Assembly (NCBI GenBank): GCA_022827275.1
Contig: JAJDTG010000015.1
Coordinates: 62,001-126,000, forward strand
DNA length: 64,000 nt
Direction: 5' to 3'
Source: Candidatus Dadabacteria bacterium
Lineage (GTDB): Bacteria > Desulfobacterota_D > UBA1144 > Nemesobacterales > Nemesobacteraceae
A model generated the notes under the pieces. The model did no database searches. It was not told the origin of the DNA and saw nothing but the letters and a program-made list of their open reading frames with translations. The translations under genes and the position numbers were made by a program. Of this stretch, positions 1-8,384 are shown in pieces (the first letter of the stretch is position 1; every line of letters begins with the position of its first letter).

Positions 1-2
1 TA

Positions 3-392
3 GGCCTCGGCGCACGCCTCGTCAGTCTGCATCTAATGGAAGCCGAGGGCACGGACGTGCAGGTGACGTTTCCTGATACCGGCAGCAACCAAGTGGACAA
101 AGTGTATTACACGCCCTCGACCGATGGTTTACCGGGGTGCGTATGGATCAATCACAAACAGCATTTCGAGAACATCGAACCAGAGGTCTGGGCGTTCACC
201 ATCGGTGGCTACAAACCTGCGGACAAGTGGCTCAAGGATCGAAAAGGCCGCACGCTTTCCGAGGACGACATTGACCACTACCGGAAGATCATTGCTGCCC
301 TTGCTGAAACCCGGAGTCTGATGATTGAGATCGACGACGTTATCGAACAGCACGGCGGCTGGCCTGTTGCATTTCAATTGGGGCAAGATTAA
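3..392 (+). CDS. 3' end of type ISP-like restriction-modification / adenine methyltransferase (C-terminal specificity region), truncated by window start
   Basis: Frame is open to the window edge (GLGARLVSLHLMEAEG...). Motifs VWAFTIGGYKPADKWLKDRKGRTLSEDDIDHYRKIIAALAET...IDDVI resemble type ISP C-termini. Confidence 0.75.
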   Translation, partial: GLGARLVSLHLMEAEGTDVQVTFPDTGSNQVDKVYYTPSTDGLPGCVWINHKQHFENIEPEVWAFTIGGYKPADKWLKDRKGRTLSEDDIDHYRKIIAALAETRSLMIEIDDVIEQHGGWPVAFQLGQD

Positions 393-841
393 GGACTGAG
401 ACATAATCTGCATGTCACCAACTCCACTGAATAAGAACCGTTGCGACGGCACGTTCAGAGGGTCGGAGGATAATATCGGCCCGGCGCGAGGTTGAGGAGC
501 TACTCGTCGGCACCGGCGCGGACGGGCTCATACCGACGATTTTGTACTCTTCTATCCGATTAACTTTTGGGATCTGCAGTTCAGCCAACAGTTCTTCTAC
601 ACGCTTGGCAAACTCGCTTCCCGTTGAGACAATCTTCAAGCAGAGATTCCGAGAATCCCTGCTCGGATCTGAAATCAAACGTGAAAATTGACGAGTAAGA
701 TGGTAGGGGATTTAATAGAGGATAACTATATAATAATCTATTTTCTATGTAATCCGTACGGTTTAAGCAGCCGGGTATTCATCCCAAGTGCGGTCTTCCA
801 GAATACGCCCCGCTTTCTTTTGGGATAAGACCCCTAATAAG

Positions 842-2431
842 TCAAAATTGGGAATTGCCTCTGAATTTCTTTTTCCCTTTTATCTTTGAGTGACAACAGA
901 TTTTAAATTTTAACCCGCTTCCGCAAGGACATGGATCATTTCGGCCTATATCGGAAACATACTTCCAAAACTCTCGCTTTCCTTGTTCTCCGTGTGAATA
1001 TTGCCCACAAGGAGGGATTTTTCTAAATTTCTCAAAGTAGGCTTGCCAAACAAAGTACGGATATACCTTGTTAATAACAAAGTCGCTTAAGGTTTCTCTT
1101 TCGTTTATCAAAAAGATCCCCAAGCAGCAACTTTCATCCTCAGGAAATAAATGCAAGTCAACAATCGGGCAATCGATTTCTTTGGCCAGCTTTTTAATCC
1201 TACCCCCAACTTCGAAAACTTTAGGTTTTCCATTGAGAAGTATTTCAATTTCGTAAACATCCTGAATACAATCTTTCCCCGAAGAGCAATTCGTTATTAT
1301 CCATTTTTTCTTTTTCTTCCTACCCGAAAGTTCATACCTCGCACTGAAACTGATTTCTCCTCTGACAGCACCCTTGTCATAGTACAAACCGGGAAAACGA
1401 CGCTGTATTTTCTCCATCTCCGCAGGGGTGCATTCAATCGTGGGCAAGGGGGAGCTTTCATGGCTGGCATATGGCTTGGTTGGATACACGGGTGCCAAGC
1501 CGCCGCCGGTCGCCCCCGAACTGGGTTTCACCTGTAATTTGCCGAAATCGTCGCCAAACACTTCTCTCCAGAGTTTCACGCTCTTATTATGGTCTTTCTC
1601 TTCAAAGGCTTTATTAATTTTAGTGTTATATAAGTCAAACTTTTCACGGAAGTTCCTGTATTTAGTTTCGTCCCAGTTTCTATTGAAATTCTCCCCAGGT
1701 AAGACCGGGTTTTCGACGGTCGGCATTTGCGGATTATTCTGCAGGAACTCATTAATCCTGTTGGACAGAGTCTTTAACGCCTGTGGCAGATCGCTGAAAG
1801 CGGACGAACCCTCATCAGAGCTATAAACATGATTCCCAAGAAGGGTCGTCAGCAGAATCGATTTTATAGAATAGTTGCTCTTGTGGTCGCGCTGGAACTT
1901 AAGAAGGCGAGTCACTTTTCTCAAAAGATTGTTGCCGGTAATTCTGTTCTTCTCAGCAAACCACTTTTTGTATCCATCACCGTCCGTCTGTTCATATTTC
2001 TTTTCGACTCTGTTACATACATAGAATTTCCCTTGGTACTCGATGCATGGAACCGCGTCAAGGTGAAAATCTCCGGCATAATCGATAGTAACGCATCTGG
2101 TGCTTAAGCGAACGATGTCTTTGTAGTTCCCATTATCCTTGAAAATGTCATATACTTCCTTTACGTAATCCTTCTGAAACTCATCGGGCTTAAAGTACTC
2201 ATCCTTGATGAAGATCAGGATGTCGGCATCAAACTCATCATTCTCCGCAACGGGTTTGATGATGGTTTTATGGGCATAGGATCCTTGGGGGCTATATTTC
2301 CGATAGCCAGGCAGTTTAGATTTAAGCAAGCCCGTAACGGTTTTGACCCTGCTGTCCAAAACATCCAGTCTCGACTGATTCAGATCCACATGTTCCTTCA
2401 GAAAATCCTCAAAATACTTTACAAACTTCAT
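842..2431 (-). CDS. CBASS-like CD-NTase (cyclic oligonucleotide synthase) with apparent E2-like domain and C-terminal SEC-C motif
   Basis: NTase motifs GSYAHKTIIKP...DEFDADILIFI and HLDAVP. Aa ~331-490 E2-like pattern (DLHLFPEDESCCLGIF...LSDFVINKVYPYFVWQAYFEKFRKIPPCGQYSHG). SEC-C IGRNDPCPCGSGLKFKICCH. Confidence 0.8.
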   Translation of the reverse strand: MKFVKYFEDFLKEHVDLNQSRLDVLDSRVKTVTGLLKSKLPGYRKYSPQGSYAHKTIIKPVAENDEFDADILIFIKDEYFKPDEFQKDYVKEVYDIFKDNGNYKDIVRLSTRCVTIDYAGDFHLDAVPCIEYQGKFYVCNRVEKKYEQTDGDGYKKWFAEKNRITGNNLLRKVTRLLKFQRDHKSNYSIKSILLTTLLGNHVYSSDEGSSAFSDLPQALKTLSNRINEFLQNNPQMPTVENPVLPGENFNRNWDETKYRNFREKFDLYNTKINKAFEEKDHNKSVKLWREVFGDDFGKLQVKPSSGATGGGLAPVYPTKPYASHESSPLPTIECTPAEMEKIQRRFPGLYYDKGAVRGEISFSARYELSGRKKKKKWIITNCSSGKDCIQDVYEIEILLNGKPKVFEVGGRIKKLAKEIDCPIVDLHLFPEDESCCLGIFLINERETLSDFVINKVYPYFVWQAYFEKFRKIPPCGQYSHGEQGKREFWKYVSDIGRNDPCPCGSGLKFKICCHSKIKGKKKFRGNSQF

Positions 2432-2446
2432 TTCAACACCTCCGTG

Positions 2447-3358
2447 TTATCTTAAGAATCCCTTAATTAGCTCTCCGCGGTTCGTTACCTCTCGCAAGGC
2501 CAAGCTCTTTAACGTTGGCAGAACCTTGCAATCATCAAGTTTCCAATTTTCAATCTCCGGATTTATTCTCAGAATGTTCTCAGGCATTATCAGGTTCAGG
2601 CAATTCTCAGCGTATTGAGTCTGGTTAAGCATGGCAAAGCTCACGATTTTTTCTCTCCTCCAGCCTGTTGCCAGCCCCCATATATACGAGGGGAGGTAAA
2701 ACTGTCTGGTATTTCCGGTCCCTATAGACAGTAGCTTCGTGTTTTCTGGGGTTTTATTGAAATTTCTTATTGCGTCAACATATCCAACAAGCGCTGGATT
2801 ATTCGCCCACAGGCCACCATCGCAGACAAGGTCCCCCGCAATCTCCACGGGATTAAAGTAAACAGGCGCCGAACACGACGCTAAGACAGCCTTATAGAGG
2901 GGCACATCCACATCACGGGAATAGTCGCCGCCACGTCTATCTTCTTGATAGGAAGACTTGAAAACATGTACCCTCCCAGTGCTGACATTCGTTGCGTTAA
3001 TTATCAGGGGTGTTTTTATATCACCCAGGGTAATTTCTCCAAAACTGTCACGCAGAAGGCTTTCCAGAACTTTGTTGTCATATCTACTTCTCAAGAAACC
3101 ACATAGGGAAAACCTCTTTTTGAATATCTGGGGAGCATAGCACTCATAGTCCCGGACTAGCTTCGATAAGTCATATTTTGTTGCGATGGCAGCGGCAACG
3201 ATGCTTCCCGTACTTGTACCTACGAGAAGATCGAAGGTATTATAGATATTGATGCTTAGTTTATCGTTCATTAAGCTGAGGGCTCGAGCCGAGAAAATTC
3301 CCCTGATTCCGCCCCCGTCAAGGGATAATATTTTGAAGAATTTGCTTTTCTGTTTCAT
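2447..3358 (-). CDS. capV: Patatin-like phospholipase, CapV-type CBASS effector
   Basis: DGGGIRG, GTSTG nucleophile elbow and DGGLWANNP; directly upstream of and co-directional with the CD-NTase. Confidence 0.85.
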   Translation of the reverse strand: MKQKSKFFKILSLDGGGIRGIFSARALSLMNDKLSINIYNTFDLLVGTSTGSIVAAAIATKYDLSKLVRDYECYAPQIFKKRFSLCGFLRSRYDNKVLESLLRDSFGEITLGDIKTPLIINATNVSTGRVHVFKSSYQEDRRGGDYSRDVDVPLYKAVLASCSAPVYFNPVEIAGDLVCDGGLWANNPALVGYVDAIRNFNKTPENTKLLSIGTGNTRQFYLPSYIWGLATGWRREKIVSFAMLNQTQYAENCLNLIMPENILRINPEIENWKLDDCKVLPTLKSLALREVTNRGELIKGFLR

Positions 3359-3498
3359 GGGTATTTACTATACTTGTTTTCTATGTCTTCTCAAGCAATA
3401 AATGTTCGGTACTCTGAACTTATTATTTCCTATTGAATTTCTGAAGTCAAGTAATTAAAATACTTCTACAGTGAACTGCCTAAAAACGGGAAAAGTCT

Positions 3499-3819
3499 AT
3501 GTCAAGCACTCTGGGAAGTAAGATTCAAAAAATCAGAAAGCAGAAAGGTTTGACCCTTGAGGAACTTGCGAAACTAACAGATTCCAGCAAAAGCTATATC
3601 TGGGAGCTTGAGAACAGAAACCTTCCCCGACCGTCTGCGGCGAAGATAGCCAAGATCGCCAAAGAACTTGAGGTGGAAATAGAATATCTGCTGGACAATG
3701 AAGCGGCAGTGAGCAAAGAGGAGGCAGTTGACGCAAAATTTTATCGAGAATATAAAAAAATGACTCCTGAAACCCGCAAGAAAATTCGAGATATAGCAAA
3801 ATTGATTGGGAAAAAATAA
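3499..3819 (+). CDS. XRE-family HTH transcriptional regulator
   Basis: SKIQKIRKQKGLTLEELAKLTDSSKSYIWELENRNLPRPSAAKIAKIAKELEV. Confidence 0.85.
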   Translation: MSSTLGSKIQKIRKQKGLTLEELAKLTDSSKSYIWELENRNLPRPSAAKIAKIAKELEVEIEYLLDNEAAVSKEEAVDAKFYREYKKMTPETRKKIRDIAKLIGKK

Positions 3820-4728
3820 ATGACCAAAGAGCTGTCTCCTGAGCGTTGGGCTACTGATCTTACTGTAATACTCAATGCTACTCATAAAGCCGACCGGTTT
3901 CCGGTAAAAGTAAAACAGCTTGCGCTTGACTTTTCCCAGAATAAGTTTCCCGGTGATCCTATCACAGATGTACTAGACGATTCCCTGCCCGGCTTCGAAG
4001 GTGCTTTGCATCCTGCCCAAAATGGTAAAGAAGGCTGGGGGATTATCTATAACAACGCCATAAGTTCATCAGGCAGAATAAATTTTACTATAGCCCATGA
4101 GTTCGGTCATTACCTTCTGCACCGGTTGAGGTATCCAGAGGGTATCCAGTGTACGGAAGAAGACATGGCAATATGGAACTCCAACTATAAACAAATCGAG
4201 AGCCAGGCCAACAATTTTGCGGCAAATCTACTCATGCCTCTTGATGACTTCAGAAAACAAATTGGACCGCGCGTAAAACCCGATCTGGAGATGATTGGAA
4301 TGTGTGCCGATCGATATCAAACTTCTCTGACGGCTTCAATATTGCGCTGGTTACATTATACTGAGCGGCGGTCTATTCTTGTCGTCTCAAGAGATGAGTT
4401 CATTTTGTGGTCGAGGTCAAGCGAACCTGCGTTCAAAACCGGTGCGTTTTTCAAGACAGCAGACAGACCGCCCATTGAAATCCCTGATAAATCGCTTGCC
4501 GCTCAAAGAAAAGTTGCTGAAAAAAACAATGGAGTTCTTGAGATTGACGCTGGGGTATGGCTTGGAGAGCCTTGTGAAGAAATGGTCCTCTTTGCGGACC
4601 AATATAATTTCACGATCTCATTGTTGCATCTAGACGAAGCGACTCCAGATTTCGAGTCAACCAAGGAAAATGAACCAGATGCTTACGATAAAATAGCCTA
4701 TCATACATTTGGATCGTCTTCCGTATAG
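3820..4728 (+). CDS. ImmA/IrrE-family metallopeptidase
   Basis: INFTIAHEFGHYLLHR (HEXXH); start codon directly follows the XRE stop codon. Confidence 0.85.
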   Translation: MTKELSPERWATDLTVILNATHKADRFPVKVKQLALDFSQNKFPGDPITDVLDDSLPGFEGALHPAQNGKEGWGIIYNNAISSSGRINFTIAHEFGHYLLHRLRYPEGIQCTEEDMAIWNSNYKQIESQANNFAANLLMPLDDFRKQIGPRVKPDLEMIGMCADRYQTSLTASILRWLHYTERRSILVVSRDEFILWSRSSEPAFKTGAFFKTADRPPIEIPDKSLAAQRKVAEKNNGVLEIDAGVWLGEPCEEMVLFADQYNFTISLLHLDEATPDFESTKENEPDAYDKIAYHTFGSSSV

Positions 4729-4907
4729 TAAAGCTACCTTCACTCTAGCCTGAAAATAATCATTGGAATAATAAAAACAATTATTTGAGCAAGTTAGAGT
4801 TGATACTTAAAACATTTTTTATTGTTCTTTCTTTCCCCCTTATTTTGCTCTAAAACCTTGACATCACCCTTTTGATGATTAGTTTGAGAAGTGGAGGTAC
4901 ATGCTAG

Positions 4908-5768
4908 ATGCAAACGGCAGTTGCAACGTGCGATTCACTTTCGGTTTTCATGCGGGAAATGGAAAAACATCCACTTCTCTCAAAAGAGGAAGAGCACGCG
5001 CTTGCGGTTAGATATTACGAAAACGAAGATCTTGAAGCGGCCAACAAACTCGTGGTGTCAAACCTCAGGTTCGTGGTAAAAATCGCTTCTGAATACAGAT
5101 CTTACGGTTTCCCGATGATGGACCTTGTCCAAGAAGGTTCGATAGGACTGATGCGCGCCGTTCAGAAATTCAACCCCTACAAGGGCTACAGGCTAATATC
5201 CTACGCGGTGTGGTGGATCAGGGTAAGGATCCAGAACCATATAATGAAGTTCTGGAGCAACGTTAAGATCGGAACAACGCAGTCCCAGAGAAAGCTTTTC
5301 CAGAGAATAGAAGGGGCGAAGCGCAAACTCGGTATAACAGCCGCCAGCATGGAAGATGACGACATAAGCCGTCTGGCCGACCATTTCGGCGTCAAGGAAG
5401 AGGAAATCTCCGAGATGCAGGTTCGCGCTTCAAAAAGAGATCTCTCCCTCTCGGAGCGTCCCGCAGGAGACGACTCCTCAGCCACTTACGGGGAACTGCT
5501 ACCCGACCCGTCGGATAACCAGGAGCAGGTGCTCGGCGAGCTCGGGTTCGACAGCCTTGCCAGGGAGAATCTGCGCGAAGCTCTCGAGATGCTTTCAGAG
5601 AGGCAGGAAAAGGTGATAAACGAGAGGTATTTCACCGAACCTCCAAGAAAACTCCACGAAATAGCCCGAGACCTCGGGGTTTCCCAGGAGAGGGTAAGGC
5701 AGATACAGGCCGAATCCATAGGGAAACTCAGGGCACACATGGCCGAAAAACTAGAAATTCACCCGTAA
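4908..5768 (+). CDS. rpoH: RNA polymerase sigma-32-like heat-shock factor
   Basis: Region 2 (NLRFVVKIASEYRSYGFPMMDLVQEGSIGLMRAVQKFNPYKGYRLISYAVWWIRVRIQNHI) and region 4 HTH; adjacent to dnaK. Confidence 0.85.
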   Translation: MQTAVATCDSLSVFMREMEKHPLLSKEEEHALAVRYYENEDLEAANKLVVSNLRFVVKIASEYRSYGFPMMDLVQEGSIGLMRAVQKFNPYKGYRLISYAVWWIRVRIQNHIMKFWSNVKIGTTQSQRKLFQRIEGAKRKLGITAASMEDDDISRLADHFGVKEEEISEMQVRASKRDLSLSERPAGDDSSATYGELLPDPSDNQEQVLGELGFDSLARENLREALEMLSERQEKVINERYFTEPPRKLHEIARDLGVSQERVRQIQAESIGKLRAHMAEKLEIHP

Positions 5769-5794
5769 AAAGAAAAAACCCCAGGAGGAATTAA

Positions 5795-7714
5795 ATGGCT
5801 TCTAAGATAATAGGAATAGACCTCGGAACGACTAATTCATGCGTCGCCATTGTTGAGGGCGGCGAACCGAAAGTGATAATAAACGAGGAAGGCACGAGAA
5901 CCACCCCGTCGGTGGTCGCGTTTCTAAAGGACGGAGACGAGGTTCTGGTCGGCGGACCGGCGAAGCGCCAGGCCGTCGCCAACCCCGAAAACACCGTCTA
6001 CTCTACCAAAAGGCTTATGGGCCGCAGGTTCGAGGAGATATCGAGTGAAGCTGACAGCCTTGCCTACAAGGTAGTGAAATCAGGCAAGTCAGACGCCTGG
6101 GTCGAGGTCGAGGGAAAAGAGTACTCCCCCCCGCAGGTCTCAGCGCACGTGCTGACGAAGCTCAAGAAAGCCGCAGAGGATTACCTGGGTTCAGAAGTCA
6201 CTGAAGCCGTTATCACCGTTCCCGCGTATTTTAACGACAGCCAGCGCCAGGCCACAAAAGACGCCGGAAAGATAGCCGGTCTTGACGTAAAGCGCATAAT
6301 AAACGAGCCGACCGCGGCGGCGCTTGCCTACGGGTTTGACAAGAAAAAAGAGGGGATGATAGTGGTCTACGATCTCGGGGGCGGAACTTTCGACGTGTCG
6401 GTGCTTGAGGTCGGAAACAACGTAATAGAGGTTAAGTCAACAAACGGCGATACCCACCTCGGCGGAGACGATTTTGACAAGAGGGTTATTGATTACATCG
6501 TCTCCGAGTTCAAGAGGGATTCCGGGATAGACCTCGGGGCGGACAAGATGGCCGTGCAGAGGCTCAGGGAAGCCGCTGAGAAGGCCAAGATCGAGCTTTC
6601 AAACACCGTCGAGACGGAAGTAAACCTGCCGTTTATAACGGCTGACGCGAGCGGTCCCAAGCACCTGGTGCTTAAGATAACGCGCTCCAAGTTCGAGCAG
6701 CTTGTAGAGGATCTCGTAAAAGGCACCCTAAAGCCCTGTGAGCAGGCCCTCAGGGATGCGGGGCTTCGCCCGGGCGAGATAGCCGAGGTGATACTGGTCG
6801 GCGGATCGACCAGGATCCCGCTTGTGCAGAAAGTCGTGACTGACTTTTTCGCAAAGGAGCCGAGCAGGGGGATAAACCCAGACGAGGTGGTCGCTATGGG
6901 GGCCGCCATACAGGCGGGCGTGCTTGGCGGAGACGTAACCGACGTGCTTCTTCTCGACGTGATACCACTCTCACTGGGTATAGAAACCCTTGGAGGGGTC
7001 ATGACCACCATCATCGAGAGAAACACGACCATTCCCACAAAGAAAAGCCAGGTTTTCACAACGGCCGAGGACAACCAGAACTCGGTTGAGATCCACGTGC
7101 TGCAGGGAGAGCGGCAGATGGCGGCTGATAACAGGACGCTTGCCAGGTTCATTCTGTCGGGTATTCCCGCGGCGGCAAGGGGCATTCCGCAGATAGAGGT
7201 GACTTTTGACACCGACGCCGACGGGATACTCCACGTTTCCGCTAAGGACAACGCGACTCAGAAGGAACAGAAGGTCAAGGTCGAGGCCTCAAGCGGGCTA
7301 AGCAGTGATGAGATCGACTCCATGGTCGAGGACGCCGAGAAAATGTCTGAGAAGGACAAGGAGAAAAGCGAGCAGGTTCAGAAGAGAAACCAGCTTGACG
7401 AGCTTGTCTACAGGACCGACAAGAGCTTCCAGGAGCTTGGCGACGGCCTCTCTGAGGATGAGAAAAAGGAGCTTGAGCAGGCTCTTGAGGAAGGAAGAGA
7501 AGCCCTTAAATCGGATGATCCGGGCAAAATTGACCAAGCGACGGAGAAAATAACAGCAGTTTCTCACAAGCTTGCGGAGCTGATGTACAAAAAGCAGCAG
7601 GAGGAAGCCTCCGCTGGTACCGGAGAGGGCGGGGCGGAAAGCCAAGCCTCCGAACAGGGAAACTCTACCTCGGGCGACGACGTGATAGACGCCGAGTTTA
7701 CCGAACAAAAGTAA
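5795..7714 (+). CDS. dnaK: Molecular chaperone DnaK (Hsp70)
   Basis: [24 protein letters not shown]..., [14 protein letters not shown], acidic C-terminus. Confidence 0.98.
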
Positions 7715-7949
7715 CTGCGAGGGGTTGTGAGTTACACTCCGTTTTTCCACAGCTACTGCTTCGCCGACCGAAAAAAAGGATTATATACCTTGTTGTCCAC
7801 CGCTTAAGCGGTTCATGCTAAAAAAAAGCACGGTACGTTGAGTCATCAATATGCCATGCTATAATTAGTTCTGAGGGTAGAAATATTACCAAGAGAGTCT
7901 CTAAAATCTGATGAATAAAACATTTAATAAAGGATAAGTAGGAAAGTCA

Positions 7950-8384
7950 ATGGCACAAGAATCTGTATACCTCTCTGCTATTCTTCTCTGTCAACAAATA
8001 TTAAAATCAGAAGGAAAAGAGAAGCTTGTAAGTTTAATAAATATCTTTGATAATTTGGTTGTTTCTACAAATGCCCCGGTTTCGGCAACAATACAAATTC
8101 CGATCGAATGTTATTTATTTGCAAAGCTAGCGGATAAGAAACCAAGGGGGAATTATGAGCTTGTTATTGAAATATTTTCTCCTTCTGGGAAAAAGCTCGT
8201 ACAAATTACAGGAAATTTGCAAAACAAAAATATTAGCAAAGCTGGTAGCATTGGAGATATACTACAGCCGTTACATTTTACAACTGATGAGGATGGAGAT
8301 CACTTGATAACTATTAAAATTCAAGATCAAATTATAGGAGAAAGAAAATTATATGTCTCCCGTGAATTTACAACCAAACCTTAA
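7950..8384 (+). CDS. Conserved protein of unknown function (DUF6941-like)
   Basis: ORF with overall resemblance to DUF6941-type small proteins; first gene of a three-gene operon. Confidence 0.5.
   Translation: MAQESVYLSAILLCQQILKSEGKEKLVSLINIFDNLVVSTNAPVSATIQIPIECYLFAKLADKKPRGNYELVIEIFSPSGKKLVQITGNLQNKNISKAGSIGDILQPLHFTTDEDGDHLITIKIQDQIIGERKLYVSREFTTKP

Follow-up and report, generated by a model that had tools for sequence, protein, structure and literature searches.

In type II CBASS with Cap2 (E1-E2) and Cap3, the CD-NTase undergoes ubiquitin-like conjugation (Jenson 2023, PMC10097602), and in the type II-short form of Serratia marcescens (SmCdnG with its E2) the cyclase is accompanied by an E2, with no E1 or JAB. 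A first-pass annotation of the 64,000-nt stretch of Candidatus Dadabacteria DNA analysed here (hereafter, the window) placed an apparent E2-like domain, recognized by eye, inside the cyclase polypeptide itself. We asked whether this region is an E2, whether the fused gene belongs to a CBASS system, and what it would mean for the cyclase to be made as one chain with an E2.

Domain organization of the fusion protein

The annotated open reading frame was found on the minus strand, running from 2431 to 842; it starts with ATG, has GGAGG 7 nt upstream and encodes 529 aa (Table 1). Pfam placed a SMODS domain at aa 1-162 (E 4.6e-30) and, at the C-terminal end where the annotation had expected it, a SEC-C motif, with no Pfam assignment between the two. 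The catalytic GS and Asp triad of CD-NTases, already named in the first reading, were present, and G50/S51, D68/D70 and D125 were invariant among the cyclase homologues. Two PADLOC models of CBASS E2s matched the C-terminal half of the fusion, PDLC00872 at aa 338-492 (7.5e-19) and PDLC00865 at aa 387-521 (2.7e-15). By these matches, one polypeptide combines a CD-NTase, a prokaryotic E2 and a SEC-C motif. The linker between cyclase and E2 reads PTKPYASHESSPLPTIE and runs directly into the E2.

Table 1. Features of the fusion gene and its cassette (positions in the window; aa numbering of the fusion)
Feature	Position	Strand	Evidence
CD-NTase::E2::SEC-C fusion, 529 aa	842..2431	-	ORF, Pfam, PADLOC models, fused homologue
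CD-NTase domain, aa 1-300	1532..2431	-	PDLC00793, 5.9e-120
Linker, aa 301-331	1439..1531	-	Of all parts, varies most between the two species, PTKPYASHE excepted
Internal KPY motif, aa 319-321	1469..1477	-	Aligned with TKPYGDYDGVE* of split relative L230/L242; tail census
Predicted E2/UBC domain, aa 332-494 (about)	950..1438	-	PADLOC E2 models; PDB profile search; dN/dS 0.048
C436, predicted E2 catalytic cysteine	1124..1126	-	24/24 conserved; aligned to the cysteine of UBE2W HxxxxxxxCL
H427, opening the HxN-like motif that precedes the cysteine	1151..1153	-	24/24 conserved
H480, conserved His in the E2 domain	992..994	-	24/24 conserved
SEC-C zinc motif, aa 497-514 (C501, C503, C511/C512)	890..943	-	PF02810, 4.4e-9; Cys conserved in 23-24 of 24 sequences
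CapV-type patatin phospholipase effector, at the head of the operon, 15 nt upstream of the fusion	2447..3358	-	NF041079; PADLOC 5.9e-80
CapH-like HTH repressor, divergent	3499..3819	+	PADLOC capH 9.4e-29
CapP-like M78 metallopeptidase, divergent	3820..4728	+	PADLOC capP 1.8e-71

The E2 region and the UBC superfamily

A profile of the E2 region was built from 24 sequences, namely the window protein, its fused homologue, and 22 sequences from split relatives; all but that of the window protein were trimmed before the SEC-C motif. Searched against the PDB, this profile matched 142 sequences under E 5, with UBE2W (2a7l, 2.4e-5) at the top, and the best 60 of the 142 were all ubiquitin-conjugating enzymes or UBC-containing fusions (UBE2W, UBE2A, UBE2K, UBE2D and others). 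The alignment paired 'HinkdgslCL' of the E2 family with 'HVYSNGHICL' of UBE2W, so that the eukaryotic active-site cysteine falls on C436. The annotation had offered two candidate cysteines, C435 and C436 (ESCCLG, aa 433-438), and only the second stands: C436 was invariant in 24/24 sequences, as were H427, H480 and the zinc cysteines C501 and C512 (C503 in 23/24), whereas C435 was not conserved. The His of the HPN motif was likewise invariant; at the Asn position the window protein has Phe (HLF) and the relatives vary.

Some members of the E2 family also weakly matched the Pfam families Prok-E2_B, E2-ntca and UQ_con. An hhalign comparison of the E2 family with three Cap2 N-terminal domains, a set that is perhaps too small, was not significant, and AlphaFold, run on aa 309-529 with an alignment of 2 sequences only, returned a pLDDT of 32, too low to be of use. 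Judged from the PADLOC and PDB profile matches, which bear out the reading by eye, aa ~332-494 of the fusion are a UBC-superfamily E2 with an intact predicted catalytic cysteine.

The CBASS cassette around the fusion

The fusion is the second gene of an operon that opens with a CapV-type patatin, on which the NF041079 model (CBASS_lipase) scored 210 bits (cut-off 200). Divergent genes for CapH-like and CapP-like regulators lie on the other side of the patatin, and beyond them come ORFs that look, by reading, like a sigma factor and a DnaK. No E1 (ThiF), JAB or separate E2 was detected among the scanned cassette genes. A promoter and terminator scan gave counts near chance, and an Rfam scan of positions 1-8000 of the window gave no match. 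By gene content, CapV, the fusion and CapH/CapP make up a complete CBASS cassette, and the gene is placed with E2-only type II CBASS, in a fused form. The core of the first reading, a CD-NTase, a prokaryotic E2 and SEC-C within a single CBASS polypeptide, is thus supported, and the fusion is equivalent to the E2-only form.

Fused and split relatives

A second species of the same genus (genome G017) carried the same cassette, with an ungapped 529-aa fusion of 89% protein identity. Between the two fusions, dN/dS was 0.084 for the cyclase, 0.215 for the linker, 0.048 for the E2 and 0.068 for the SEC-C part (0.079 for the whole), and the low value for the E2 therefore indicates that the fused E2 is under strong purifying constraint. 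Within the linker, PTKPYASHE was identical in both species and the flanking residues varied.

Split forms of the system were also found. G017 itself had, on another contig, an operon of a Cap15-type effector, a cyclase ending in KPWISF and an E2-SEC-C, and two further genomes (G019 and G021) had split patatin/cyclase/E2 operons. The closest split relative was locus L242 of a gammaproteobacterium (G113), with a patatin, a cyclase 63% identical to that of the window and an E2-SEC-C. Its gene order and its TKPY tail are those of the window, but cyclase and E2 are two overlapping genes: the cyclase ends in TKPYGDYDGVE, and the E2 frame has an ATG that shares bases with the Tyr codon of KPY. If an indel struck an overlap of this kind, it would join both genes and leave the tail in place; the fusion probably arose in this way. 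Judged by alignment with this relative, the internal KPY of the fusion is the equivalent of the C-terminal [KR]P[WY] tail on split partners.

Ten samples, with 1,929 genomes from several phyla in all, were scanned with the E2 profile. Matches were obtained in 31/1,929 genomes, and the cyclase-fused frame was present only in G000 and G017. Plasmid and phage collections yielded no fused case, and the viral contigs scanned yielded no further E2s. Of two scans of genome contigs, one gave no match, and the other was dominated by the SEC-C of SecA and other proteins and recovered one true relative (L045). Within the window's own genome, neither another E2 of the same class nor a related cyclase was found at the thresholds used. 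The E2 is not a common feature of the nearest cyclases: those most closely related, on viral contigs and several plasmids, carry in its place a C-terminus that by eye resembles AGS-C.

Two neighbouring observations were made in these scans. In G017, two adjoining short E2-like ORFs of other classes were seen (L223, contig C14, about 112966-113627). On plasmid pHALHY02 of Haliscomenobacter hydrossis (L036, 9208-13565), a protein that resembles a DHH-CorA fusion adjoins an E2-SEC-C CBASS operon, as do type III-B CRISPR genes.

A [KR]P[WY] tail on the partners of E2-SEC-C proteins

At each of 36 loci, the gene directly upstream of the E2 was taken and the end of its product inspected; before any exclusion, 27/36 products ended in [KR]P[WY] with a few residues after it. 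Seven loci were excluded after the data were seen: L255 was a near-duplicate, L211 had an IS element upstream, L260 had an unclear frame, L231 belonged to another E2 class, and L239-L241 had E2s without SEC-C, with partners ending in RFYGE or NYGGKVY. Among the remaining partners, [KR]P[WY] followed by 1-8 residues stood at the C-terminus in 26/29 and P[WY] in 28/29, the exceptions to the full motif being QPWKD, SPWSR and RPHRC. One of the 29 loci (L258) lacks SEC-C by pattern and has a KPW tail. The chance of a [KR]P[WY] tail is ~0.0045 per protein, and it was absent from all 20 CD-NTases that lack such an E2 (Fisher 6e-11, to be taken as a guide only, the loci being partly related and the exclusions post hoc). 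The contrast of 26/29 with 0/20 does not depend on this p-value. A solved cyclase, 9woo, which matches the Vibrio gigantis cyclase of the set, also ends in KPWFK.

The tailed partners were not all CD-NTases. Pycsar-type cyclases preceded the E2-SEC-C in Chryseobacterium (L205, tail RPWLKRS) and in three Bacteroidota loci (L233, KPYFY; L237, KPYFNYG; L238, KPYFNEGKNKT), the L233 cyclase matching PADLOC PycC at 3.7e-135, and in Runella (L210) the partner was an MBL-fold protein ending in KPWQRG. Because one motif is common to unrelated partners of one E2 family, the short C-terminal motif is best read as a recognition or conjugation site of the E2.

Three sets of loci deserve mention in their own right. 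The E2-SEC-C genes that follow RPW- or KPY-tailed Pycsar cyclases (L205, 2003-3636, with L233, L237 and L238) suggest E2-only conjugation in Pycsar. On the Runella slithyformis plasmid (L210, 1902-5813), the MBL protein and the E2-SEC-C are followed by a pair of small membrane-like proteins and another MBL protein, possibly an unnamed E2-linked system. The CBASS E2s without SEC-C (L239-L241) accompany cyclases with RFYGE or NYGG tails, and NYG stands close to the end of the solved CD-NTase 7ljo, so that the partners of E2s may come in two tail dialects.

Proposed mechanism and alternatives

Yan et al. are said to have described in 2024 an E2 that processes the cyclase C-terminus, forms a cysteine-linked intermediate and ligates the cyclase to lysine, giving poly-cGASylation. 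On balance we lean towards a similar course here, a fused E2-only type II CBASS in which the E2 would process the tail, load the cyclase on C436 and prime signalling. In split systems, the E2 would recognize the [KR]P[WY]-x(n) tail of the cyclase and remove the residues past the aromatic, and the cyclase would be held on the E2 as a cysteine thioester and then ligated to a lysine. Poly-cyclase chains would activate signalling, by analogy with the Serratia E2. In the fusion, the KPY lies internally about 10 residues before the E2, and substrate and enzyme would share one chain. As the E2 itself follows the aromatic there, attack by C436 after Y321, in cis or between fusion copies, would give a loaded E2 with cyclase(1-321) linked to it. 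The loaded E2 would pass the cyclase to lysines and leave it primed, and the cyclase product would activate CapV, with membrane phospholipid being degraded and the infected cell killed or halted.

Cyclase-cyclase chains have been proposed for E2-only CBASS (PMC11153139). For cGASylation in prokaryotes, the entry in a 2025 review (PMC12135389) gives Y405 as the site and E2 as the enzyme, with credit to Yan et al. (2024); the residue listed there for type II-short systems is an aromatic too, which would fit the aromatic-ending tail and the KPY of the window. We infer that the E2 acts on the KPY in cis. The retained partner-tail motif in the linker would give a concrete basis to the 'self-contained priming' that the first-pass annotation had considered. 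A bolder proposal, which we hold tentatively, is that the fusion is a self-processing precursor in which C436 cuts Y321|A322 and leaves the cyclase pre-loaded, and that the [KR]P[WY] tail is the substrate signal of E2-SEC-C proteins across CBASS, Pycsar and MBL enzymes, in effect a ubiquitin-like conjugation signal without the ubiquitin fold.

The main rival, which we consider unlikely, is that the chain stays uncleaved and the E2, without covalent chemistry, binds the KPY in its active site as a pseudosubstrate or adaptor and so holds or releases the cyclase by allostery. The tail lies inside the chain, where it may be out of reach, and the constraint on the E2 and the KPY would suit either binding or catalysis. 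The E2 also lacks the canonical Asn of HPN (HLF in the window), a point for an adaptor and against processing in cis. We know of no precedent for cleavage of a tail that precedes a folded domain, as opposed to 1-8 free residues. However, all 24 sequences keep C436, H427 and H480, which is more than binding would need.

It is improbable that the intact fusion works only in trans, modifying another protein or a cyclase such as one with a free KPW tail. G017 has both the fusion and a split operon with such a tail, but in the window's genome the fusion stands alone, and no free-tailed partner was found there at the thresholds used.

It is very improbable that the fusion exists only on paper, be it through an error in sequencing, because a frameshift has recently inactivated the gene, or because the E2 is made separately from an internal start. 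Fused frames were seen in only two of the genomes sampled, and an in-frame TTG at L329 could in principle start the E2; this start was rejected, the codon being TTA in the second species, and the ungapped, constrained fusion of that species largely refutes the explanation as a whole. There is equally little chance that the fusion is a member of the catalogued CD-NTase-E2 family implied by PADLOC PDLC00816, a 542-aa model that matches cyclase at 9-383 and E2 at 423-540, since the window cyclase scores best on PDLC00793 (5.9e-120, vs 5.8e-29 on PDLC00816), and the E2 class of that model has no SEC-C and its split partners are tailed RFYG or NYG, not KP[WY].

Comparison with known systems

The favoured reading, a fused E2-only type II CBASS, places the cassette closest to type II-short systems. 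As in these, a CD-NTase, an E2 cysteine and an effector gene are present and no E1 or JAB was found; what is absent is a separate E2. Type II-short systems have a separate cyclase and E2, with a free cyclase C-terminus, whereas the window encodes one chain with the motif internal. Cap2/Cap3 CBASS has an E1, a JAB and a cyclase ending in Gly or Ala, in contrast to the cassette here, with no E1 or JAB and an internal KPY. CapV/CapH/CapP cassettes share with the window the patatin effector and the divergent HTH and M78 regulators, but where the window has the fused cyclase-E2 they carry a cyclase that is either alone or accompanied by Cap2/Cap3.

The E2-SEC-C arrangement is the ordinary layout of known E2s of E2-only type II CBASS and no new addition. 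A full-text search of a limited literature set found no CBASS paper that mentions SEC-C. The search for further examples that the annotation had called for recovered the second fusion in G017. The arrangement is only in part uncatalogued: a CD-NTase-E2 fusion of another, SEC-C-less class is, by its profile, already implicit in PDLC00816. That model resembles the fusion here in joining cyclase and E2, but differs in its cyclase clade and in its E2, and the two fusions look independent. What is newly found, as read from the alignments, is the partner-tail rule and the retention of the KPY inside the fusion.

E1-independent loading of a substrate by an E2 is recent and unusual biochemistry, and a natural cyclase-E2 fusion that keeps the tail motif makes the loading question testable in one polypeptide. 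The tail motif common to CBASS, Pycsar and MBL partners provides a simple sequence rule for predicting the targets of E2-SEC-C proteins, and its sharing suggests that E2-only conjugation extends beyond CBASS. Having retained the tail motif on which such E2s appear to act, the fusion protein may process or activate itself.
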